A program made the translations under genes and the position numbers. The notes under the pieces were generated by a model, which did no database searches, was not told where the DNA came from, and was given only the letters and a program-made list of their open reading frames with translations. Below are positions 1,287-22,417 of a stretch of DNA of 23,646 bases, piece by piece (the stretch's first letter is position 1; every line of letters begins with the position of its first letter). The stretch spans positions 1-23,646 of the forward strand of contig JASNJN010000188.1 of the NCBI GenBank assembly GCA_030180075.1, read 5' to 3'. The stretch is from Mikrocytos mackini. Its lineage: Eukaryota > Endomyxa > Ascetosporea > Mikrocytida > Mikrocytiidae.

Positions 1287-2119
1287 TTATATTGTTTTTA
1301 GTATTCGAATAAACGAAGACATTAGTTTTGCTGTTACTATTTCTCCTGGACTTTTATAAGTAAAGTCTTCAATATGTTTAGGTACGAATTTCTTATTTGT
1401 AATAAGAATAGACTCATCTTTTTCGTCTGTAATTGAAATAAGAAAGATTTCGTCTTTATTGGCGTCTGGAAAAAGTAAAAGTTCTTTGAAACATTCAATG
1501 TCAAAGCTAAGAGTTCTAAGTTTTGGTCTGTCTTCTCTATTCAGACACTCAATTCCTTCTACGTCACTTTCTTTTATTATTTGGTACCAACATCCTACCC
1601 GAATGTGTTTGTCTATTGCGTACCTGGTAACAGAATCCAAGTCGTATTCTTTAATTTCTTTTATATTCTTGAGAAGATCTCCATGCTTGTAGAAAGATGA
1701 TGATCGATATATAGTTTTCCGAAGTTCACTCAAGACTTTAGACATCCCCGCTTTAGTTTTGAAGGTTAGCTTATTGTATACTTTTTGTTGTTGTTAATGT
1801 GGTCCTCAGAAGATGTGTCGAACCTCTTTGTTTCTGTTATGAGAATAGCTCGTTTGTATATTTTCTGTGTAGGTCATCAATGACCAATAAGCGCGTGTCC
1901 TTGCGTATATATGTAGAAATATGATTGCAGTTGATGTTCGATTATGAAAGTCTCTAGGTTTTCGTTAACAAAGCAAAGGTTTATTAGAATCGGCTGGTCA
2001 TTGGAAATCGATACTTTGCTCTCCGATCTATGATACAACCATCCTGTAAGGTTGTAAGGCTTTGCTCTTATTAGTTTGAAATCGAATAGTGGTGTCTCGT
2101 AGTCGAAAACTTGTTCCAT
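1287..2119 (-). pseudogene. POL2: DNA polymerase epsilon catalytic subunit, N-terminal fragment, frameshifted
   Basis: N-terminal fragment of the leading-strand replicative polymerase, a family B enzyme. It starts at ATG 2119. The first piece (2119-1877) carries the family signature before the polymerase fold: a conserved TGWL followed later by QSYFYIYT. The frame then breaks at a TGA. Two short pieces in other frames (such as VIDDLHRKYTNELF) bridge to the second piece, which is open from about 1785 to 1287. That piece has IDKHIRVGCWY and then the exonuclease ExoI motif SFDIEC with LLLFPDANKDEI. LITN and EDF follow, a combination typical of Pol epsilon rather than delta. The frame stops just after this, so the rest of the exonuclease and the whole polymerase domain are missing. 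At least two or three frameshifts are needed to join the pieces. It is therefore a truncated relic, and a working copy would have to lie elsewhere. Confidence 0.8.
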
Positions 2120-2162
2120 AAAATCTGTTTGAAATTTTTTATTTTGACAAAGTTTCGCGGCT
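2120..2162. promoter_or_regulatory. 43-bp divergent intergenic region
   Basis: The starts of the POL2 fragment (minus strand, 2119) and the P2X-like gene (plus strand, 2163) face away from each other with only 43 bp between. If both were once expressed, this T-rich spacer must hold both promoters. Such spacing suits a compact parasite genome. No specific factor site is recognised. Confidence 0.35.
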
Positions 2163-3290
2163 ATGGTACTCTATAGAAACCCCACTTACGCGAACATAGA
2201 AAGCACTAAGCTAAATAGATTATACTGGGTAATGAGGATTATTGTGACTTTGTACCTCCTGTTTATTATCTATACTTCAGGAACTTACCTTGAAACCATC
2301 AAAGGACATGCCGTAGAAGACATAAGATTTAATGGGAATCTAACACTAGACGTAACAAACGTCATATTCGATTTATACGACATAATGCATGATACAGTAG
2401 TCACAAACTCGATCTACGTTCCAATAAACACTACAAAGAAGCTTAACCAACGAAAAGAAAAGGTAACTGGGATTCTCACCAAGACAAGAGCCCCTGAATA
2501 TTGTCTCTCCGAGAAGTTCTGTTCAACTGGCTGTAAAAATCAGCCTTTCCAGATGTTTGAATTACTTACAGAAGGAAAATGTTCAAGCGAAAACAAGAAT
2601 TACTGTGAAACACAAAGCTGATGTGACCCAATAATAGAAACTTCGCCTGTTTACAACTTTAAAATAACAAGCAACAGCTCTATAGACGTGAATATACGTG
2701 TGTTATTTGACAAACCCGAAACTAAAGTCATCTCTTTTGCCAAGAACATAAAAGTTACCGGCTTATTAGATCGAATTGAAGGACCAGGAGTCAAATATGA
2801 TAAGAAAACTGACCAATTTGAGCCTGCCGTTTTAATAGCATTCTACGACATTAATTGTGCTCCATTCTCTGGCTGTAAAGAAACCCTTAAAATACTTAGA
2901 TTGGATACAGGCACTACAGAAAAACGACCTTCCAAAGTGTTTAAAAAGTTCGTATTTAAATTCAATAAAAAGGAAGATATAGACGACGACTCAGATAGAC
3001 GAAATTTTGACGAATTCAGAGACTTGTACTATATGCACGGATTACGGATAACATTTGATGTACGTGCAAACAAATCTGTATTCAATCTTGTGAGATTTCT
3101 AATGACTATAGGATCTGCAGTGACTTATACACAAGTTGTGGACTTATTTATGGATTTGTGTATTTGGCTCATTCTGGGAGGATTTTCTTATGAAAATATC
3201 AAGTATTCGGGAAGAAAAGAAGATGATCAAAAGATGAAACTCATGTTTGAAAGGATAACAAAAGAAGTTGTAGAAGGAAAAGTTAAATAA
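2163..3290 (+). pseudogene. P2X-type ATP-gated cation channel homologue, interrupted by in-frame TGA
   Basis: P2X receptors are trimeric ATP-gated cation channels with two membrane helices and a cysteine-rich ectodomain. Here a short N-terminus leads into TM1 (about residues 22-46), followed by a P2X-like block (IFDLYD... then a TN-rich strand). Next come paired cysteines (C..KFC..GC, GKC..., YCE..). After the break are YDINC, the HGLRITFDV strand that corresponds to the family's YGIRFD, TIGSAVTYTQVVDLFMD as TM2, and YENIK, matching the conserved YxxxK after TM2. The two ORFs (2163-2621 and 2688-3290) are in one frame. The only stop between them is TGA 2619-2621, exactly where P2X proteins have the Trp of the CE...WCP motif. 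The total of about 375 codons is normal for P2X. It may be a TGG-to-TGA nonsense mutation, a readthrough site or a base error. Function at the membrane is inferred from the family. Confidence 0.8.
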
Positions 3291-3499
3291 ATGTAGATAT
3301 AAGTGTTGTTGGAAGATTGAGTTATGCAAATTGAAATTTAAAGGGTGTTTAGTGGTATTTTGGTTGAAATTAATTGTTTTATGTTTGTAATAATGGTGGG
3401 CTGTCATTTTTAATAGTTAATTTTCACATATGCTTTTGGCATATATGTATCAAACACATAGGGAATATAGCCATTTTATTTGTTGCTTGTATCGAAAGA

Positions 3500-4470
3500 A
3501 AATTGTCTTTTATATTTTGCAAAAATAAAATTTTGACAGAACATGAAAGAACATTTACAGACGCCCTCGCTCATTTAAACTCCTGGAAATTACACCCAGC
3601 AAATATTCACAAAAGACCACGCACATATTGAGGAATTTCTAACTTCCAAGTTCTCTACAAGTCGTACTCTAACAACTTTCCATGACAACATCATGATACA
3701 CTACATAAAGCACGCAGTTACGAATAGTCTTAATTTCCGGCCAGTCCTCATCATGTTCCGAAACAAATCACAGAATACAGGATATGTTAATTTAATTCCT
3801 GTCTTTTCTTCTCTACTTTCTCTTCTCTCTAATACTTAAATAGAAACAGAAAACAAAGATAAAGTCGAAACAACGCCACAGTACCGAGTTGAGTGCTACA
3901 AAAGCATCCTCACTGTTTTTAGGAACTACCAAATGTTCCTTCTTGAAGATCTTGTTAACATTTACTCAACAACTATTAAGGAGATGTTTAAAACTTCTGC
4001 AGAGTATTTCAAAAACACATATTTAAAGCGCTTCTCTGAAAATTTTTTAATACTTGAAAGAATGCAAAGTTACGTGCTAGAAAAAGACTTCTTGAAATTC
4101 TACGACGTTTATAGAACTGTGCGTCAATCTATTTTAATGGAGTACATAAAACTAGGGATGTACCAACATGCATACAGATTAATAACTCCTCTTCTTTACA
4201 TAAGCAACAAAACGAAATTAATATCTTTGATTATTTGAAAAAGAAGATTTAGAACTTTTCTTTAATGACATAGAAGCCGTACAAAGACAACAGTTTAACC
4301 TGCTCGGGTTAAGTTGTTTAGAACTTGAAAGACATAAAAGAAAACACAACTGCGATCTAATCAAAGGCGCCCTTTATATTCTTTGCAACAGAGATTTGTC
4401 TATTCGATTTGAAAGTAAACTTCCTGTTGAAAGAGAAGCAGAAGAAAATGTTTACAAAATAATAACTTAA
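3500..4470 (+). pseudogene. Unrecognised gene, broken by two frameshifts and a TAA
   Basis: Four coding-like stretches follow one another. The first ends at the stop at 3629-3631 (TEHERTFTDALAHLNSW). The second runs in another frame from 3594 to TAA 3837-3839. The third continues in the same frame from 3840 to TGA 4236-4238 and contains the 101-codon piece starting at ATG 3933. The fourth is shifted again and ends TAA 4468-4470 (NDIEAVQRQQFNLLGL). Composition is that of a soluble, mostly helical protein of about 320 residues rich in Leu, Tyr and Lys. No signal peptide, membrane span or known motif is seen, and the true start is unclear. The next broken gene follows 62 bp downstream on the same strand. 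The pieces read as one decayed gene. Confidence 0.5.
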
Positions 4471-4532
4471 TAGAAAAAGAAATTCGAACGCAAAAACAGT
4501 AAAACAAAGACTTTATTTTGATAAGCGAGAAT

Positions 4533-5664
4533 ATGGACGTTAAAACTTTGATTGAGGAATACATTAAGGAATTAAAAACTCTTGATCAAAATGAAACTGT
4601 TAGGACTGCGATCGAAGTTTAGGAGTATATTGTTTACCCTGAAACCTTTCTGACAAACAAATTATTAAACTTAGTAAACAATAAAGACTTACTAGATTCC
4701 TTGTTGAGTTTACAGATAGACAACCATGCTAGTGGAAACTTAGATCGTTTAATATTTCTTATAGTTAAAACGACGATATACAAAATTTACGAAATAATAA
4801 TGTCAGAAGAAGATGAGGAAATGGTAAAAGAAGAACTTTACGAACTACTTTGTATTGAAGAAGACATTGAAGAGTCGGAACTTTTAAGTTTGGTTACTAT
4901 TGACAAGTATGAAACCAAACAACATGATACTAAACAAAAGAATTGCAATCATTATGGGTCAGAATTTTGTTTTAAGTACAAATTCTTTGATTTTCTATTC
5001 ATGCAGCAAATTGATATAAAGAAGTACATTATTTTATTGCTCATTTCGGTGAGTAAACATCTAATAACAATTACAGAGGATGGAATTAAATTACGGAAGA
5101 TAGTTTCGAACATCCGTACTTTGGAGGGCGATGAAAGCACAGACAATAAAAGTTCTGGAACAACTAAAGATAAGAAAGAAGAGTTGAATATTGAAGATGT
5201 TAAAAAGGAGATATTTAATAAAGGGCTGAATGTGTTTAAAGAGGAGCTTAAAAGAGGGTTTTTTAATTTAATGAAGTTTCATAATGACAATTCATTGAAT
5301 AAAAGAGAATTTGAAATAGACGAACATATTGAACGTAAAAAAGGTGAATAAAGAAGACAAAGCTACTTTAAAGATTTATCTTAATACGGAAAACGATTGT
5401 GAAAACCAATACAAAGAAGACATGGAGCTATTTATAAATGAAGTAAACGGAAGATTAAACGAAGGATATAAAAAGGAAATAGAAGATTTCAATAGATTGG
5501 CATCGGAAATCAGACATATGAAAAACACAACATTATTTACCGAAGTATACTTATTTAATATGAAGAAACAAACTGTGTTAGAAATGGAGTCCAAAAAGAA
5601 TAAGACAAAGAATATTGAAACATATAATCCGAAGAAGAATACATTATTTGGTCATTTATTTTGA
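4533..5664 (+). pseudogene. Unrecognised acidic/coiled protein gene, in-frame TAG plus frameshift
   Basis: The ORF opens at ATG 4533 (MDVKTLIEEYIKEL). It meets TAG at 4620-4622 and continues in the same frame through 4701-5351. Near 5336-5341, a run of six A, the sense moves to another frame and ends at 5664 (TLFGHLF, TGA). Joined, it is about 375 residues. It contains an acidic Glu-rich part (residues ~90-130), one hydrophobic stretch (KKYIILLLISVSKHLI), and a Lys/Glu-rich C-terminal half likely to form a coiled coil. I do not recognise the family. The homopolymer at the second break could be a sequencing indel, but the TAG is a substitution and needs another explanation. It is oriented like the preceding broken gene. 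Confidence 0.5.
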
Positions 5665-10925: not shown

Positions 10926-12977
10926 TTATTTATTGTCATTTTGGTTTGTTTTGTTACTCTTTTCAGGACTATTCTGGGAAAAGATGCTGCTAACATCGTT
11001 AACATAAACCGTTTTTAAAGTAGAAGAATATTGTGATGGATTCTGTGTTTCTTTATCCTCGCCAGTTATATCTATGACTAAATTTTCTTCTATGTACGGG
11101 TTCTGTGTGGTTTCTAAATTCGCAGTCTTTTTTGTTATCTTTTTAGGTTTAGCGGCTCTTTTTCTGGTCGCAACTTTCTTTATTGGTTTATCTTCTGTTA
11201 TTTCCGTTTCAATTCCTACATTTTTAGCTAACTTAGCCTTTTTAGTTTTAGTTACATTATTTTCGTTTTTCTTTTTAACATTTCTTTTCCTACTGGTTTG
11301 TTTCTTTATTTTTTCCTTTTCTTTTTCTTTCTCTTCTTTTTCTTCGTCCTTTAATAATTCTAAAACGAAAAAGTTTCCCATTGTATTCTTTTCATATTCT
11401 TTGAGTTTCTTTTCCACCTTACTATAATCAAACACAGGGCCCACTTCAAAAGGGTGTATTTTGCCTTTCTTCTTTGCGTTGTTATCATCTTCGTCTTCTC
11501 CGTTTTCCTTTTGTAAAAATTCATCCAAAGATTTTTCTTCCTCCGAATTTTCCTCATCTGTTTCAGATATAACATCTATGTCGTCGCCCTCTCCGTTAGA
11601 CCAACCCTCGTTGGAATCCTCTTCGTAGTTAATCAGCTCTTTGTCTTTAATGAAAGGGTTTCTTCTTTTGATAGTTCGGGAAGATCTTGTGTATTTTCCT
11701 GTGAAAGGAAGATGGGAGTCTTCAAAGTGTTGAATAAAAATATTGCCTGTTATTATGTCTTCTTTGTCTTTGTTATTTGTATTGTCGACCTTGGAATTAT
11801 TAAGCGGGTTGTTTTGGCTGTAAAATTGTAACTTGTGTGGTGTGAATGGATTAAACAAACACCCATTTTTATTCTTTGTTTTGATGTTTCTCTTTTCTTT
11901 TTTTGTTACAAACTTAGAAATATTAGAAGACAACGAAACTTGTTTTTTCTTTGGAGATTTTACAGCGACAGATTTTTGTTTCTTTAAGTTTTTGTTATTT
12001 TCCTTTTCTAATCTTTTAATTTCTCTTTCTTTTTCCAATTTTTCCTTTTGAAGTTGTTTCTTAACTTGTTTTTCATAATCGACGTATTTGATTATTTTTT
12101 GTTCCATTTTGTTTTCTTTCATTCTTTGTTTGAATGATTCTTTCAATTCCTTTAGAATGATTTGTTTGTGTTTATTGAACTGTTTTATTTTTTCTTGTGT
12201 TTTCTTTTCCTCAGCTTTTAGTACATAGTTTTTGTGTTTTATTTTTAAAATGGAAATTTCGTCTATCATTTTCTGTAGCTCTTTCAACTGTGCGTTGGTG
12301 GCCTTTTTGGGCGTCTTGGATCTTGTCCTGGGAACCTGCACTGCTTTTGCGTCGAGGGTATCTGGTGTGGCTAACGAATCATCGGGTACTTCTTTCGCAA
12401 TGTGGTTAAGCTCGTTGTATATATTGATGAACTTTAGATGAAGCAAAACAATTGGTTTGACATACTTCTTACGAAGGTACTTTTCAAAAGCCAATCTTTC
12501 GGCGAGGGCTTGCGGGAGGTGCTTGAATAGATCACGATTAATGGCTTCCCAAACAAAAAGGTGCTCATTGTCGTTGTTTTCCAATTTGTCTATCTCCTTG
12601 CCTTTAAAAATCTTGAATTGGGGCTTCCTTTTAGCTAGGGATATTATAACAGGCCTTATCTTTATTAGGAGGTCTGCCTCATCGAGCTTTCTTTCAGTTT
12701 CGGAGAAATTTGTGAGCATCGATATAATGTTGCTACATAGGTCAGTCAGGTTCAACATGGACTCTTCTATTAACAACTCAATGCATACTAACTCGGTTGG
12801 TGTGTCAAAGTTGTAAATCTCTAATTTTTGAAAATTAGTATAATCTTCAAGTCCTTGTAAATATTCAAGCAATTCTTGGTTCAGTGATCTACTAATTCCT
12901 CTATTAGTTTCTAATAAGTTTACTAGGTTTTTCTTGATATTAATATATAAAGGTTCGTACTTTTGAAGAAAATACAT
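10926..12977 (-). CDS. Chromatin assembly factor 1 large subunit (p150/Cac1-like)
   Basis: CAF-1 is the nuclear chaperone that deposits H3-H4 behind the replication fork. Its large subunit binds PCNA, DNA and histones. This 683-residue protein shows the expected order. A helical N-terminal region (1-200) of unknown role is followed by a highly charged KER region (about 229-335, Lys/Glu/Arg coiled coil). A PIP-like site sits at about 346-357 (Q...SNISKFV, aromatic pair incomplete). The CAF-1 signature RRNPFIKDKELINYEEDSNEGW (about 438-459) then leads into an acidic ED stretch to about 500. A second charged, basic tail (530-620) and a low-complexity end follow. The order KER, PIP, ED matches yeast Cac1. 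It is intact, single-exon, ATG at 12977, TAA at the end. The match is by signature and order, not by search. Confidence 0.85.
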   Translation of the reverse strand: MYFLQKYEPLYINIKKNLVNLLETNRGISRSLNQELLEYLQGLEDYTNFQKLEIYNFDTPTELVCIELLIEESMLNLTDLCSNIISMLTNFSETERKLDEADLLIKIRPVIISLAKRKPQFKIFKGKEIDKLENNDNEHLFVWEAINRDLFKHLPQALAERLAFEKYLRKKYVKPIVLLHLKFINIYNELNHIAKEVPDDSLATPDTLDAKAVQVPRTRSKTPKKATNAQLKELQKMIDEISILKIKHKNYVLKAEEKKTQEKIKQFNKHKQIILKELKESFKQRMKENKMEQKIIKYVDYEKQVKKQLQKEKLEKEREIKRLEKENNKNLKKQKSVAVKSPKKKQVSLSSNISKFVTKKEKRNIKTKNKNGCLFNPFTPHKLQFYSQNNPLNNSKVDNTNNKDKEDIITGNIFIQHFEDSHLPFTGKYTRSSRTIKRRNPFIKDKELINYEEDSNEGWSNGEGDDIDVISETDEENSEEEKSLDEFLQKENGEDEDDNNAKKKGKIHPFEVGPVFDYSKVEKKLKEYEKNTMGNFFVLELLKDEEKEEKEKEKEKIKKQTSRKRNVKKKNENNVTKTKKAKLAKNVGIETEITEDKPIKKVATRKRAAKPKKITKKTANLETTQNPYIEENLVIDITGEDKETQNPSQYSSTLKTVYVNDVSSIFSQNSPEKSNKTNQNDNK

Positions 12978-13401
12978 GTTCCATGGAGTTTAACTTTTTA
13001 AAAGATTTAAGAAAAATAAAATTTTGGAATTTTTTTAGTGCGGTTTGTATCTTTTTACACAGAGGTCTTCAACTACTTTGGGTGAGTAGGATATAATCGA
13101 ACATGATTATATGAAGATACAATGTTTTAAATAGAGAATCGTAGGTTTTTAAATTGGGATAAAATATTCCATATTTTGTAGGAATTTTGGTCACTTTTTA
13201 AAACATTGATACAACAATTTGATACAAAATCATAAAAGTTCCTACAAAATATGAAAATCGACCTTCTAACTACAATTTATTAGTTATTTTTAGAATTAAT
13301 GCGATTTAATGTTTGTATTCTATTTACTTATATCTCTTGAAGGTTTGATGTTTGAAGGTATTTTTAATTAGAGAATTTTTCCACACAAAATAACCAACTT
13401 T
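12978..13401. other. Intergenic spacer with inverted repeats
   Basis: 424 bases separate the start of the CAF-1 gene from the end of the next minus-strand gene. No ORF is supported. The spacer holds two inverted repeats: a small one at about 13091-13112 (ATATAATC / GATTATAT) and a larger one at 13170-13253. Confidence 0.5.
13170..13253. repeat. 19-bp imperfect inverted repeat
   Basis: Arms at 13170-13188 and 13235-13253 (CATATTTTGTAGGAA... and its complement) pair with one mismatch around a loop of about 46 bases. It may be a tiny fold-back element or a terminator-like hairpin. It lies upstream of the CAF-1 gene start. Confidence 0.55.
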
Positions 13402-13700
13402 TCATTTCCTTTCCAATCCTTTAATATTAATATTCTTAATCTTTTCATCAAATATTTGATAAAGAATATTTACCAACTCTTCCATATCCGCTTCCTTCAA
13501 AATACTACTCGATATCTCTTCACTCGTTGCTGTGGGCGTGCTCATATGTCTGGCATAAAGTTTGTTCAATACATTTTCTAGTCCTTTTAAGTCTTTTTTA
13601 TCCACTTCATATTTACTGTTTATTTTAAACTCTCCATCTTCTTTCTCTATGTCAAACAGCAGCACAAGTATATACAATATTTCGTAATTCCTTAAAACTT
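13402..13700 (-). CDS. C-terminal part of the 313-aa membrane protein, or separate small ORF
   Basis: The frame reads LEVLRNYEILYILVLLF and ends NIKGLERK with a stop at 13402. It has no ATG at its beginning (TTG only) and overlaps the end of the 313-residue ORF by about 13 bases. At the junction there is a run of five A on the minus strand. One more A would join the two frames as ...NIDKKLEVLRNYE. The simplest reading is a single protein of about 410 residues with a one-base deletion. It contains a short hydrophobic stretch and an acidic, helical remainder. No family is recognised. Confidence 0.5.
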
Positions 13701-14633
13701 CCAATTTTTATCAATGTTTTCCAGCGCCGCTTCTGCTATCTCCGAATCAATCTTTTCAAATTCTGCACTGTCCAAGTCAGGAATATCGTAAAGAAAATCA
13801 AATGTTTCTTTGTAGTAAAATTTTGCCTCCAAATTTATTAACTCTGTTATTTCTCTTAATAAATCAAAGTTTGTACTCTCCCGGGTTCTGAACCTTCTAA
13901 CTATACTTTTAAAACTGAGTTTAAAAAGCAAAAATTTCCCCAAATAATTTCTTTGGAATATTTTAATTGTGTAAAATTGTGCACTGTTTAACATTATCTT
14001 AGCCTCATCATTACGTTCTAATGGACTTGGGGACCTTTTGCTGTCGTCGTTTTTTTCTTTTTGCAGTAAATATTTGTAAGTATACAAATCGTTGTTTAAA
14101 GTGTCGAAGAAAACGCTGTCAAACGTTAGTTTGTATAACGATACTTCTAAGAGAGCTTCTTCTTCATTGTTCGAAATAACTTCAAGCAGTTTCATTGGTT
14201 GCGAAAGTAAAACAATTTCTTGTTTATTCTTTATGCTTGAATTACTATCTCCGAGCGAATTTTTTGATAGGAAGTGTTCTATAATTATTGAAAAGTTGTT
14301 GATTTGTGGGAGTTTGTTAGCTATGGCGTAGTCGTATACATGATCCTGGTACGTAAACTCCAACGGTGCAAAAAACAAACACGGCGATTTGAGATCTAAT
14401 TCCTCTTTGCCTTTCGAATCTTCAACAGGCTTTGGTTTTTCTTTCTTAAACTTGAAATACAAAAGAAGTCCGGCAACAGAAATTCCCATAATGAAAAATA
14501 AAAGACCCAAAAGTACAGACAATTTTATTTGTTTTTTAGAATCGTATTCGTGGACTTTGTACTCACGGTCTTCACGCCGCTTCCCTCTTTTGCGTCTTTT
14601 CTTCTTTGGTTGATTGAGGATAATGTATCCCAT
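13692..14633 (-). CDS. Single-pass (type II) membrane protein, unknown family
   Basis: The protein has 313 residues and starts at ATG 14633. The N-terminus is strongly basic (PKKKRRKRGKRR, residues 9-20). A hydrophobic helix follows (about 37-61, SVLLGLLFFIMGISVAGLLLYF) and then Lys-rich sequence. With no cleavable signal this predicts a signal anchor, with the basic tail in the cytosol and about 250 residues in the lumen or outside. The large part is mixed helix and strand with many Asn/Leu/Phe and no motif I recognise. It ends ENIDKNWKF*, probably prematurely because of a frameshift into the downstream frame. The upstream sequence carries TTTTAACTTTT shortly before the ATG, as does the gene at 17444. 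Confidence 0.65.
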   Translation of the reverse strand: MGYIILNQPKKKRRKRGKRREDREYKVHEYDSKKQIKLSVLLGLLFFIMGISVAGLLLYFKFKKEKPKPVEDSKGKEELDLKSPCLFFAPLEFTYQDHVYDYAIANKLPQINNFSIIIEHFLSKNSLGDSNSSIKNKQEIVLLSQPMKLLEVISNNEEEALLEVSLYKLTFDSVFFDTLNNDLYTYKYLLQKEKNDDSKRSPSPLERNDEAKIMLNSAQFYTIKIFQRNYLGKFLLFKLSFKSIVRRFRTRESTNFDLLREITELINLEAKFYYKETFDFLYDIPDLDSAEFEKIDSEIAEAALENIDKNWKF

Positions 14634-17482: not shown

Positions 17483-17494
17483 TAGACTTAGCGT
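17483..17494. repeat. Target-site duplication, left copy
   Basis: The 12-bp string TAGACTTAGCGT stands directly before the MULE left end and recurs at 22406-22417 after the right end. The size is slightly above the usual 8-11 bp for Mutator-like elements. Confidence 0.8.
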
Positions 17495-17817
17495 CGGGTC
17501 TCCTTGTACCAAAATTCCTATATCATATTTTTATCTATAATTGATATATATTGTTTATTCAGTTATTAATATATCCCTGATCCATTTTCTCACGTCAAAT
17601 CTTGCATTAGACCAAAAAAACTCTTGTTGGCTCGAACTAAGTTAACTTTTTTGAAATGTTTTAGATAAGGACAATATAGTGGTTTGTTTAGATAATAATG
17701 GGGATTAAACATGTAGCTGTGATGTTTATTTAAGAATCCTCCATAAATTCCAATTTTCAAAACTTAAAATTTTAAAGAAGGCTATTTCCAACACATACAG
17801 AGCTCTTGGAACTTACA
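17495..17817 (+). repeat. MULE terminal inverted repeat, left
   Basis: This matches the complement of 22080-22405 almost base for base. Shared strings include CTCCTTGTACCAAAATTCC, GGGGATTAAACATGTAGCTG and AACTTAAAATTTTAAAGAAG. Similarity stops just after CTTAC near 17817. Confidence 0.9.
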
Positions 17818-18507
17818 GTACCCCTCCAAAATAGAATAACTATGCTAATCATATGTACAGATTTCACACTGAATAACCTTACCAGAAACCCAATTAGCCC
17901 GATTTTGTGTTAAATACAAATACTTCATACTTGTTCAAGCACTAAACACAAAAGATACTCTACATAATCTTCAATAAGCGTATGTGTTTCGCAACAAGAT
18001 AAAACATTTATAAACTTACTTATTGGAGATAATACGCCGATATTCAATCAATATTTTCCCAGCTTCTTGAACAAACAAGAAATTATACATAAACCGACTT
18101 ATTTTAATATCAAAACCTATTCCTAGATGCAAAGAAACAAACACTTCTTCAAAGCTGGGTTCAAATCGAACAGTATAACACAGAATTAGTATAAAAGGTT
18201 AGATGTATTTTGAAATGAAGTAGAAAGATCAACGAATATTGTTATTGAATTAGAGTTTGACAGTTAGGGCTGGGGTTTTGTGATGTTCACAAAATGTTGG
18301 ACATAGGTCTACTAAAATTCCGAATCGAATTGATTAAAAAATAAAACAAAAAGGAAAACCAATGGCAATTTTTTAGAAAGTTTATTATATAATATCATTC
18401 GAGAATATTGTACATTTCAAAATTTATTAACAAGTTTTTATAGTCAATACTGACTTTAATGGATAATGTAAGTTTTGTATAAGAGCCATTTATAAACCTC
18501 GGTTATT
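17818..18507. other. MULE interior, non-coding
   Basis: About 690 bases inside the MULE with no supported ORF and moderate AT-richness. It probably includes original element sequence downstream of the transposase. Nothing else is recognised. Confidence 0.4.
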
Positions 18508-18857
18508 TTTTTTTAAACAGCATACAGGCATAATTAATTAGATCTGTGCTCTGTTACTTCCAACCGTGTTGGTGGTTCCTGTTCCCTTTCTGCGGAGAAA
18601 GGACCCCTCCTACTTCCTTTTCCCTTTTCTTTTCTCTTTCTTTCAATAAGGACTTACGCCACCTAATAATTTTGTCAAAGACAATGTTAGTTGCCTCCTA
18701 AACCGGAGGTGGCCTCACCTCAGAAGGATCGGCTCTTTAAGGGTGTGTATGGGCAAGTAGCCCTGCACCAGTCTTTAAGTGTACGTGACACTAAGGTTGG
18801 CTGCCTGAACGCTCTCTCTCTTTGGGTCCTTTCTCCTTGTATAAACCTTCGGTTATT
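18491..18857. repeat. Direct repeat pair flanking a GC-richer insert
   Basis: TATAAACCTCGGTTATT at 18491-18507 and TATAAACCTTCGGTTATT at 18840-18857 differ by one extra T. They bracket a segment of clearly different composition, as a target-site duplication would. Confidence 0.6.
18508..18839 (-). mobile_element. Candidate retroposed insert (5'-truncated LINE or SINE-like)
   Basis: About 330 bases are richer in G+C than the surrounding MULE and are bracketed by an imperfect 17-18 bp direct repeat. A run of T lies right after the left repeat (18505-18514), which on the minus strand would be a poly-A end. This fits target-primed insertion in minus orientation. It has no ORF of note; the plus-strand ORF 18691-18909 shows no protein pattern. 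Other readings are solo repeats or old MULE interior. Confidence 0.4.
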
Positions 18858-18989
18858 TATTATATTAATTATTCGTCTATCATCTATTTCTTTTTTAAAA
18901 TTCCAATAATGTTTTTAGTGGCGCCTTTTCTCTTTCCTTTGGATTTTAATGGAACAATATTAACCGAATCTAGTATAGTGTTATTAATA

Positions 18990-19641
18990 CAGTGAACACT
19001 CGATACAACAAAGTTTTGTAAAATTCAAGATTTTTGTTTGTTATACGCGAAAATTTGTTATATGAGGAGTAGTTCTAGGTAGAATTTTTCAATACGTGGC
19101 GTGGTACAAATTCATATCATACTTTAAATGTGTTTTTCATCTCTATTAACATTTATTAAAACATAATTAATTTTTTGAAAAGTGAAAAAAGCTTTTTAAG
19201 CCACTCAATATGATATTTCTTTGATAATTTCAAAATTTATTTCGCCAAAAAAGTACTTTTTCAAAAATAATTTGTTAATGGACTTCGAAATTTCTTTAAA
19301 ATGCCATATTATATCTTATAAACCATACCAAATAAAACAAACCATTTACTATCAAAAATTTTCAGTAAATTTCACATATTTGGAAAAAATTCTGTGTTGT
19401 TTGTTAGATTTAAATTCCGATAGTAAATTTTTAAAAGATTACATTTTCATAAATTTTCATAACATTAAATTTAATTATTCTAATACAAAAACATAATTTC
19501 TACAAAAAATTTCGGAAAATATTATTATTGACGAAAATTTTTTTCGAACAATTTGGTAGGGAATTGGCGAAAATTTTCAAATTTTTGATTTTACTACGCG
19601 AATTTGTTGTAGCTTTTGTTTGTTATAGAGAGGTTTGACTG
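18990..19641. mobile_element. Non-autonomous pogo/Tigger-like (Tc1/mariner) element, 652 bp
   Basis: The left end reads CAGTGAACACTCGATACAAC and the right end, reversed, CAGTCAAACCTCTCTATAAC. Such CAGT...AACCTC..TATAAC ends are typical of pogo/Tigger elements. A TA dinucleotide flanks both ends (18988-18989 and 19642-19643), as expected for this superfamily. The interior is AT-rich with no transposase, so it is a MITE-like copy. It inserted into the 3' end of the MULE transposase gene. Confidence 0.7.
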
Positions 19642-21541
19642 TATTATGTTTTTCAAGTGCTTGTTTATAATCTGTTGATTCAGAAAGGTTCTGTTGGGTC
19701 TTTGACAATGATTCCACTTTAGTAGTTCCGGGGTTTTCTGGTTTAAATGCTGTATACTGTGTTTTGTATATGTTAAGTGGTATCATAGTTTTACGTGTTT
19801 GTAATCTACTTTTTGCATAAATATTGTCCTTTGGTGAGTGGTCTGTGTACAAGTTATCATTTGAATTGTAAGTTAAGTCATCTTTAGCACTCATTATAGT
19901 CTGTATGGAATTAGTCATTACATTGTTCTTGATATCTTTGATGGTTTCATTACCTATTTTTAAGTTACTTTCATTAAGATTGACAGATTCTAATTTATCG
20001 GTTGCTGTTACACACAAAGAGTCGATAATATCTTCCAACTGCTTCATATTGCTTCTTTTAACGCTTTCAAAAATAGTTTCATATAATCTAGCGAGCTTTT
20101 GGTGTAAAATTTGTCCTCTATTAGAAATTACACTGTTTATATTTTCTGTTATTGATTTTAGTCCCTTGTATATTTCGTTTCTTGTTTTAGAGCGTGGTTT
20201 TTTAATAATGGTAACAGAAACTGGTGGTAGTATTACATTTTCTTGTTTCTTTTCCGCATTGTATTTGAATAAATGATGGTTGATCCTTATAAATTCCATC
20301 ATATAAGCACGCGTATTATAGAGATGAAATAAAGACTCAAGTTTCCTATAATCATTTTTCAACATTATATGTTGACATGGAACTCCTGTCCGATTGAGAA
20401 AACCACAAGAGCAATAAGATGCGGTTGTCATATACTTTCCCGAGGTCGTATTGGTATAAACAATTCTTGACTTTTTATATTGTTCTAGAGCAGTTGAATA
20501 AGCGTAAGGAGTAATGTGGTCCCAAAGATAGCTAATTTCATTATAATCAATACTTTGGACTCTATAGAAATCGCGTATGTACTTCTGGGATATTAAGTTT
20601 AAATCGTAAGTATGAAACTTTAGCAATTCGGATAAGGCTATTTCTAATGTAGTTTTTAACCTACATATCTTCTTCACTTTCCCAAAATAACGCTCAACCC
20701 TATTAGTTGTGGACGTGTTATGTAAAAACTCTTGCGGTTCGATAAAAAGATTCCATTGTTCATATATCGGAAGCCAATTAGTAGACAAATAGAGTTTAAC
20801 TTTTGCGTTCTTTATTTTGTTGTAGTTTGACATTAGTTCGTGCATTGTTTCAGCATACACCATTTTCTGTATATTTTTGAGAATAGTCGACTTTTCCTTT
20901 GAAGATATATTGAATTTTTCAATCTTAATTTCGCGCCCTAGTGCACGCAACACATGAAACCTACATAACTTAAGCTTGATGCGGTTAAATACATCCTTAA
21001 CCGCGCTGCGTTCAGACAAATCTTTGTCTGTGAAAATAACTTTTAAATGTGAAGTCTGCTTATTGTTTCGTTTTAATATACTCAGAGCTTCGGTTAGTAG
21101 TTGCTTGGATTCTGTTTGTAATAAAAACCATGCGATAGGAAGAGCATTGCCATTTCCGTCTATAGTTATCAATGCGAAAAATGAAAACCCTTGGTTGGTA
21201 ATATTAAATGTGGAGTCCATAAGAGCTATTTTGTAATAATGGTTTAGAGCATTCTTCATGAGTAGATCCTGAAATACAATGCCATTGAGTATAGTTTTGT
21301 TATCAATGATATAGCTGACTTCTCCCGCTTTTTGTAATAAATGGCCTGCCTCTTTCAATGTCATTTTATTTTTTTTCCTTAGATGATTATGTATTTTTTT
21401 CGTACTTATACTGAACCCAAGCTTTGTGCTCAACTGAACCGTTAATGATGGAATTGATGCTTTAACTTCAATAGCATTGAAAATATATTCTGTTTGCTCT
21501 TCTGTAAATCGAAACCTGGAATTATAAATAACATCAGGCAT
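19577..21541 (-). CDS. MULE transposase, main part (DDE catalytic core and SWIM finger)
   Basis: This 654-codon frame encodes the catalytic core. The first Asp is in ALMDSTF (about 109) and the second in FTDKD (about 172 or 174). The MULE-typical CRFH is at 193-196 and the third acidic residue is in NRVERYFG (E283). A SWIM zinc finger follows, with C377, C379, C389 and H391. The long C-terminal tail (400-654) is of low conservation. The last residues after ...EKHN (TVKPLYNKQKL...) and the TGA stop are encoded by the right end of the inserted pogo/Tigger-like element, so the original C-terminus is lost. The ATG at 21541 is internal: sense continues upstream (FDFNHIHEA), and the N-terminal domain lies in another frame. 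Resemblance is to ZSWIM/Phantom-like MULE transposases. Confidence 0.85.
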   Translation of the reverse strand: MPDVIYNSRFRFTEEQTEYIFNAIEVKASIPSLTVQLSTKLGFSISTKKIHNHLRKKNKMTLKEAGHLLQKAGEVSYIIDNKTILNGIVFQDLLMKNALNHYYKIALMDSTFNITNQGFSFFALITIDGNGNALPIAWFLLQTESKQLLTEALSILKRNNKQTSHLKVIFTDKDLSERSAVKDVFNRIKLKLCRFHVLRALGREIKIEKFNISSKEKSTILKNIQKMVYAETMHELMSNYNKIKNAKVKLYLSTNWLPIYEQWNLFIEPQEFLHNTSTTNRVERYFGKVKKICRLKTTLEIALSELLKFHTYDLNLISQKYIRDFYRVQSIDYNEISYLWDHITPYAYSTALEQYKKSRIVYTNTTSGKYMTTASYCSCGFLNRTGVPCQHIMLKNDYRKLESLFHLYNTRAYMMEFIRINHHLFKYNAEKKQENVILPPVSVTIIKKPRSKTRNEIYKGLKSITENINSVISNRGQILHQKLARLYETIFESVKRSNMKQLEDIIDSLCVTATDKLESVNLNESNLKIGNETIKDIKNNVMTNSIQTIMSAKDDLTYNSNDNLYTDHSPKDNIYAKSRLQTRKTMIPLNIYKTQYTAFKPENPGTTKVESLSKTQQNLSESTDYKQALEKHNTVKPLYNKQKLQQIRVVKSKI

Positions 21542-21565
21542 AGCTTCATGAATATGGTTAAAGTC

Positions 21566-22038
21566 GAATTTATAAAATGAAATTTAATTTCGTTATTGGA
21601 AATAACCAAGTTTAGAAAGATTTTACACGGGCATCCTATTTTGAACGAACTTCCTTTTCTAAACTTTTGGGTTGAAATTCGAAGCTCTCCAAAGAAACAT
21701 TCAAACTCTATTCGTTCATAGACAAATTGTGCCGTTAAATCTTGTTGTTTTGAGTTATTTGCATGTGAAGTCTGTAGGAAATTTCTTATTTTGATAGGTA
21801 ACTTGGAAATTTGTAACTTAGTTGAACGTTTAATTATAAAATAGTGCCCTAGTTCTGCCCAATATGTAGACAAACATGATAATAAAGAGTTCAAATCTGT
21901 TACATGGCGAAAATATTCATGTTTTATGTTGGAATTGTACTGAATAATATTTGCTTCTTCAGAATTTTTGGGGTCTGTTTGATATTGAGAAAAATCGCCC
22001 AAATTTGCTTTTGGGGGTGCTACTTTAATGTATTTCAT
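21566..22038 (-). CDS. MULE transposase, N-terminal domain, separated by one frameshift
   Basis: Starting at ATG 22038 (MKYIKVAPPKANLGDF), about 155 residues precede a frame change near 21566-21580. They end with GCPCKIFLNLVI...EIKFHF. In the other frame the sequence goes on FDFNHIHEAMPDV. CPC and HIH together make a CxC...HxH zinc-binding pattern like the FAR1/FLYWCH/WRKY-GCM1-type N-terminal fingers of MULE transposases. Joined, the transposase would be about 820 residues. The annotated tail of this frame down to 21442 (MKLCLMLFIIPGF...) is out-of-frame sequence. The break is beside TTTT/AAA runs, so it may be a base-calling indel. Confidence 0.7.
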
Positions 22039-22079
22039 TGAAGAATATAGTTTGGAGTGATATGTAAATTGATTTAATA

Positions 22080-22405
22080 TGTAAGTTTCAAGAGCTATGT
22101 AGGTGTTGGAAATAACCTTCTTTAAAATTTTAAGTTTTGAAAATTGGAATTTATGGAGGATTCTTAAATAAACATCACAGCTACATGTTTAATCCCCATT
22201 ATTATCTAAACAAACCACTATATTGTCCTTATCTAAAACATTTCAAAAAAGTTAACTTAGTTCGAGCCAACAAGAGTTTTTTTGGTCTAATGCAAGATTT
22301 GACGTGAGAAAATGGATCAGGGATATATTAATAACTGAATAAACAATATATATCAATTATAGATAAAAATATGATATAGGAATTTTGGTACAAGGAGATT
22401 TAACG
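22080..22405 (-). repeat. MULE terminal inverted repeat, right
   Basis: Inverted copy of 17495-17817, about 325 bp. A handful of substitutions and a small length difference at the outer tip separate the two copies. The transposase start (22038) lies just inside. Confidence 0.9.
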
Positions 22406-22417
22406 TAGACTTAGCGT
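22406..22417. repeat. Target-site duplication, right copy
   Basis: TAGACTTAGCGT, identical to 17483-17494, directly follows the right TIR. Confidence 0.8.

Follow-up and report, generated by a model that had tools for sequence, protein, structure and literature searches.

The stretch of DNA considered here (hereafter the window) comprises positions 1 to 23,646 of contig JASNJN010000188.1 of the Mikrocytos mackini assembly GCA_030180075.1, a contig that we abbreviate as C171. On its plus strand, positions 2163-3290 contain a gene of the P2X family (Pfam PF00864) in a single reading frame, which is interrupted by a TGA codon at 2619-2621. This gene copy, referred to as P2X-B to distinguish it from a second paralogue (P2X-A) of the same genome, displays the following features (TM, transmembrane segment):

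2163-2618, plus strand: 5' open piece of the P2X-B copy, with a short N-terminus, TM1 and the first half of the ectodomain (open reading frame, ORF; profile 3-215 in the joint frame; hydropathy)
2220-2276, plus strand: predicted TM1 (Kyte-Doolittle, 19-residue window, mean 1.87)
2619-2621, plus strand: in-frame TGA that breaks the P2X-B copy, in a column invariant among the intact relatives compared; the same stop occurs in the copy on contig C621
2622-3290, plus strand: 3' open piece of the P2X-B copy, with the second half of the ectodomain, TM2 and a short C-terminus with a YxxxK-type motif (PF00864; PDB match)
3036-3062, plus strand: HGLRITFDV, which aligns to the GIRFDI strand preceding TM2 in animal P2X (sequence, alignments)
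about 3120-3191, plus strand: predicted TM2 (hydropathy)
3189-3203, plus strand: YENIK, matching the C-terminal P2X motif YxxxK (sequence)

Taken alone, the 3' piece (2625-3287) matches the Pfam profile P2X_receptor with 28.9 bits (cut-off 27, E 8e-07), and its best PDB match is likewise a P2X, at a weak E of 0.15; the Pfam search with the 5' piece alone (2163-2618) gave no P2X match. In a six-frame genome search that counted stops, both pieces in one frame reached 45.9 bits against the P2X profile. The original prediction, which was made from the letters of the window only, had recognised a P2X homologue here and proposed a joint search of "both ORFs"; the homology is borne out, an outcome without a P2X hit did not occur, and both ORFs lie in the same frame where it had placed them, although they form a single gene split by a stop and not two genes. 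The match is not due to chance, since the intact P2X-B copy on contig C172 yields 52.5 bits (E 5.3e-14) with PF00864. P2X-A scores 114 bits (E 1e-32), and 132.3 bits (E 3e-38) were obtained for P0002, a P2X-family protein of 401 amino acids from a 17,580-base ENA contig, whose source is probably Paramikrocytos canceri, an assembly deposited at ENA. Moreover, a three-sequence mikrocytid profile matched 34 distinct PDB sequences at E <=0.001 (best E 4.6e-25), of which 33 bear the name of a P2X receptor and the remaining one (5f1c) is a 'putative uncharacterized protein'.

TM1 and TM2 are predicted by hydropathy in P2X-A, P0002, P2X-B and the two window pieces, with a large ectodomain between them. 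P2X-A, P0002 and P2X-B have eight invariant cysteine columns in common; of the ten ectodomain cysteines that form five disulfides in P2X, and when aligned with P2X4/P2X7, cysteines 126, 132, 149, 159, 165 and 270 are found in all three mikrocytid proteins, 261 in two of them and 116 in none, while P2X positions C217 and C227 fall in a deletion of the mikrocytid alignment. Fewer than ten ectodomain cysteines are also known in other primitive P2X (PMC3853471). The 5' open piece of the window carries five of the six head-domain cysteines, and the sixth is the residue directly after the stop. As for the terminal motifs, N-terminal YxTxK/R is fitted by P0002 (YETIR), approached by P2X-A (YESNR) and not fitted by P2X-B (YRNPT), and C-terminal YxxxK, a P2X motif (PMC3853471), is present as YENIK in both the window and the C172 copies and is not kept in P2X-A or P0002. 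The order of TM1, cysteine-rich ectodomain, HGLRITFDV, TM2 and YENIK was thus correctly described from the outset, with every element at its indicated position, and the presence in the window of a real P2X-family gene copy, broken by a stop, is confirmed.

The host genome had been suspected to be that of a microsporidian, and its AT-rich, transposon-bearing, intron-poor sequence does resemble, by reading, the larger microsporidian genomes. However, the P2X-A protein encoded on contig C328 (425 amino acids) is 100% identical over 425 amino acids to GAHX01001715 (a EukProt entry), and GAHX01 is the transcriptome of Mikrocytos mackini (PMC9998036), an oyster parasite from the Rhizaria (Ascetosporea) with a microsporidian-like way of life (PMC10245619). 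The genome is therefore almost certainly that of M. mackini; a microsporidian origin is rejected on the strength of this match, and we assign a very small probability to the window gene being a microsporidian P2X. Of the original reading the parasite genome stands and its microsporidian identity is not supported, and since the genome is M. mackini by transcript identity, the proposed choice between early-fungal ancestry and acquisition from an animal host does not apply as framed. It is also highly improbable that the P2X gene stems from the oyster or from another contaminant of the assembly, a possibility that had been raised along with the prediction: on C172 P2X-B adjoins, across a spacer of 43 nt, an open, intron-free frame of 2131 amino acids for POL2, it matches P2X-A from the parasite transcriptome better than the best solved animal P2X (54.6 versus 20.4 bits), and relics of the POL2/P2X-B pair lie on further contigs. 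Carriage of P2X by viruses was likewise rejected, as a scan of viral contigs gave 183 pattern matches and none that was confirmed.

The assembly searched for further copies comprises 13,619,690 bases in 733 contigs, as compared to 49.7 Mb and 16,018 contigs of the published assembly; it probably represents the long-contig subset (14 contigs checked were all longer than 10 kb), and all copy counts are lower bounds. A search with P2X-A revealed five places, on C328, C329, C172, C171 and C621. P2X-A is intact on C328 and C329, whose loci match at 99.7% identity for 7.1 kb before they diverge, as alleles or as products of a duplication, and it is present in the transcriptome. P2X-B is intact on C172, where it is divergently paired with POL2, carries the TGA in the window (C171) and is truncated on C621, with the same TGA. 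P2X-A and P2X-B share 27% identity; the genome contains at least two P2X paralogues. Outside the M. mackini genome, protein searches gave P0002 (43% identical to P2X-A over 91%) as the only relative among about 8000 candidates scored; these searches were limited by shared 5-residue words and are uninformative on other Rhizaria. At its terminus, the C621 copy (L012 3801-4072) has its own 3' end repeated in inverted, palindromic form, and ORFs nearby read like transposase and integrase. The neighbours of P2X-A (L009 on C328 and L010 on C329) resemble by eye a polo-type kinase, ribosomal protein S6, an H2A variant and a small RNA polymerase subunit.

In the window, P2X-B is part of a duplicated block with the following elements:

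1317-4573, strand not assigned: duplicated block of about 3.3 kb, 93.3% identical to C172 (L011 3560-6823) by alignment
1317-2119, minus strand: broken 5' part of POL2 (catalytic subunit of DNA polymerase epsilon; exonuclease domain), with four insertions or deletions (indels) and stops; identified from the C172 copy
2120-2162, strand not assigned: spacer of 43 nt between the divergent start codons of POL2 and P2X-B, equal in length on C172 (2 mismatches in 44 columns, no indel)
3537-4571, plus strand: the gene that follows in the block, in a broken copy with three indels and stops; its C172 counterpart is an open frame of 350 amino acids

The order on C172 is POL2 (on the minus strand, without introns), spacer, P2X-B and the 350-amino-acid gene, for which a Pfam search gave no match. 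POL2 of C172 was identified as DNA polymerase epsilon by its thumb domain (E 8.7e-53) and by its best PDB match, which is to polymerase epsilon catalytic subunit A (E 4.7e-242). In the window block all three genes are broken: POL2 is cut off at 1317, and P2X-B has its stop and no indel. The left junction at 1317 is also found at one end of contig C311 (96.8% identity over 283 bp), which makes a one-off misassembly unlikely. Furthermore, two older relics, a decayed POL2/P2X-B pair on C323 (67% DNA identity over 1231 bp) and a second one on C572 (66% over 500 bp), show that copying of the pair also took place earlier. POL2-like fragments of widely varying identity, most of them with stops, were also encountered at L024 (C572), L025 (C323), L026 (C311), L027 (C563), L028 (C38), L029 (C8), L030 (C312) and L031 (C388); P2X-B relics stand beside POL2 fragments at two of nine loci examined, and some of the weaker POL2-like matches may represent other family B polymerases.

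Comparison of the window with C172 indicates that the block was constrained before it decayed. Differences at codon positions 1/2/3 amount to 8/6/44 in P2X-B (44 of 58 at third positions), 8/8/38 in POL2 (38 of 54) and 13/10/60 in the downstream gene (60 of 83), and the ratio of nonsynonymous to synonymous substitution rates (dN/dS) of P2X-B is 0.083 overall and 0.073 downstream of the stop (stop codons left out). The third-position bias together with the low dN/dS indicates that P2X-B was selected as a protein, and the same bias in all three genes points to coding constraint during most of their divergence. The C323 relic, in which 133 of 268 differences from C172 are at third positions, was for the same reason long constrained before its decay. 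When this relic was used as the outgroup (806 columns from P2X-B positions 1-830 of 1128; 10 further differences remained unpolarised), changes outside third positions made up 8 of 18 on the window branch versus 3 of 21 on the C172 branch (Fisher p 0.07), counts that fit, though weakly, a window copy that was released from constraint recently.

A functional gene is expected to have an uninterrupted frame, and that of the window copy is interrupted by the TGA that it has in common with C621. An intron across the stop was ruled out, as the C172 copy aligns gap-free over 1128 bp. A 16-nt intron of the form GT-N12-AG was sought in 13641-13760 and none was found. Alternatively, the TGA might be read through or recoded, so that the window gene would still yield a full-length channel. 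The very low dN/dS 3' of the stop and the absence of indels from all 1128 bp of P2X-B, while both neighbours have them, would agree with this. Nevertheless, both block neighbours are broken by indels and stops, which is also why TGA as a reassigned sense codon is rejected, an intact P2X-B copy exists on C172, TGA terminates one of 11 ORFs of about 200 amino acids or more (six loci counted), a recent stop would leave an equally low dN/dS, and the window branch looks, if weakly, relaxed. We therefore regard readthrough or recoding as very unlikely.

The original prediction had pointed to a channel sensing ATP, a claim that is best examined at the six residues K67, K69, T186, N293, R295 and K313 of P2X4, which we take to be its ATP contacts. 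Their equivalents were read from three MAFFT modes and from 12 pairwise alignments of each protein, which combined two references with two modes and three gap settings. In all three MAFFT modes the six positions are occupied, in order, by S, I, K, K, Y, D in P2X-A, by Q, I, Y, T, Y, K in P0002 and by D, R, S, K, F, Y in P2X-B. P2X-A thus has none of the six contacts in any MAFFT mode, nor in any of the 12 pairwise alignments, and for this reason it is unlikely to rely on the canonical inter-subunit pocket for ATP; ATP sensing by P2X-A is unsupported. P0002 retains one contact in 10 and two in 2 of its pairwise alignments, K313 being always among them. P2X-B has none of the six in the MAFFT modes, one in 10 and none in 2 of the 12 pairwise alignments, and lysine at the equivalents of K67 and K313 in 0 of 15 alignments, so that it would possess a partial ATP pocket at most. 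Whether P2X-B keeps zero or one contact depends on the alignment, and ATP sensing may or may not persist in it; a loss of ATP gating is an inference from these residues.

Taken together, it is likely that the P2X gene in the window is a P2X-B copy that was broken recently, that P2X-B belongs to a set of at least two mikrocytid genes for P2X-family channels, that P2X-A probably lacks the canonical ATP pocket, and that the channels are most plausibly cation or Ca2+ channels gated in another way. The intact members would be two-TM subunits with a cysteine-rich ectodomain that, by their likeness to P2X of known structure, probably form trimeric cation channels, and they may work most readily through a gating mechanism other than the standard ATP site, in a cell that is surrounded by host cytosol. 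The window copy was constrained for most of its history and then decayed with its neighbours after duplication of the block of POL2, P2X-B and downstream gene. A more far-reaching version, in which the mikrocytids kept P2X through strong reduction and dismantled the ATP pocket, so that in surroundings full of host ATP the channel would serve as a route for ions that is independent of ATP, or even as a large-pore conduit for metabolites, appears improbable.

Several observations weigh against the likelier reading of a decayed copy in a family gated other than by ATP. At the rate of its neighbours, about 4.3 indels would be expected in the window P2X-B, which has none (P about 0.013); it may have stayed useful longer than they did, which goes against an equal decay of the three genes. 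No P2X-B relative was found among 1608 candidates scored, and hence there is no sign of P2X-B transcription. The best PDB match of P2X-B has E 0.0019, and at its low identity to animal P2X the alignment of the pocket is uncertain. AlphaFold models are poor, with a mean predicted local distance difference test (pLDDT) of 33.5 for P2X-A and 39.8 for the 3' piece of the window.

The remaining objections concern the pocket, and they feed the view that mikrocytid P2X, and P2X-B in particular, are normal ATP-gated receptors whose pocket has diverged and which sense ATP in the vacuole lumen or at the host interface. The strong P2X profile support is in keeping with it, as is K313, retained throughout in P0002, and pairwise alignments of P2X-B give lysine at K69 in 8 of 12, F294 in 10 of 12 and lysine in place of R295 in 8 of 12. 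In addition, phmmer places IKG of P2X-B on VKG of P2X7, where the mikrocytid alignment puts other residues. A very divergent P2X can moreover be ATP-gated, as Dictyostelium P2XA is in spite of lacking all conserved cysteines (PMC3853471). By contrast, the contacts of P2X-A are missing from every alignment and P2X-B never keeps K67 or K313; an ATP-gated channel in a plasma membrane that faces host cytosol would, furthermore, stay open or desensitise. On balance we judge ATP gating unlikely, if still the most serious competitor, and prefer channels opened by other means.

P2X are usually regarded as ATP sensors, and a lineage of intracellular parasites in which P2X-family proteins are retained and selected while at least one of them is devoid of the ATP contacts would show a role of the fold without its usual ligand. 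Among the open-licence papers listed in literature searches for P2X or purinergic receptors in Rhizaria, none was seen to report a rhizarian P2X. The main body of the paper on the M. mackini genome (PMC10245619) mentions neither P2X nor the word channel, and P2X is absent from the main text of a comparative paper on Ascetosporea (PMC11069148). Three microsporidia yielded no cation channel (PMC3410928), and M. mackini is reported to have 61 transporter genes in 17 families, with no clear ATP transporter among them (PMC10245619). P2X would add a channel to this transport inventory. The main interest lies in the intact paralogues, that is, in a selected P2X family of a probable energy parasite whose ATP contacts have disappeared from one paralogue and are in doubt for the second. 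The window copy, which is decaying, matters less in itself; it warns that in this transposon-rich genome working genes and recent pseudogenes occur together on single contigs.

Other elements of the window include a complete-looking MULE-type DNA transposon at 17495-22405. Its inverted repeats (17499-17817 and 22080-22398) are 319 bp long and 98.7% identical, its transposase ORF spans 19577-21583 (PF10551, E 2.7e-15; PF21056, 1e-23), and the direct repeat TAGACTTAGCGT stands just outside both ends (17483-17494 and 22406-22417). An ORF of 687 amino acids at 10926-12989 on the minus strand carries the dimerisation domain of chromatin assembly factor 1 subunit A (PF12253, E 8.8e-12), and one of 270 amino acids at 103-915 on the plus strand reads like a fragment of a MULE/SWIM transposase, with no such match in Pfam.

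Compared with known systems, the mikrocytid proteins (375-425 amino acids) share with animal P2X1-P2X7 (PF00864) the two TM, the large cysteine-rich ectodomain, the RLD and GxR..F stretches and G-[SA] in TM2, and their profile matches PDB chains with E down to 4.6e-25. They differ from these receptors in their low identity, in the deletion of the stretch with C217 and C227, and in the ATP contacts, of which P2X-A has none and P2X-B and P0002 have no more than a part. Primitive P2X from Dictyostelium, Ostreococcus, Monosiga and basal fungi, here compared by description (PMC3853471), likewise come from single-celled or early-branching hosts and have divergent ectodomains with incomplete cysteine sets. 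In the same description, the Ostreococcus receptor OtP2X keeps two key lysines, equivalent to Lys69 and Lys308 of rat P2X2 (PMC3853471), whereas P2X-A keeps neither and P0002 the second. P0002 has the eight cysteine columns and the shortened ectodomain in common with the M. mackini proteins but differs from them in its lysine at K313.
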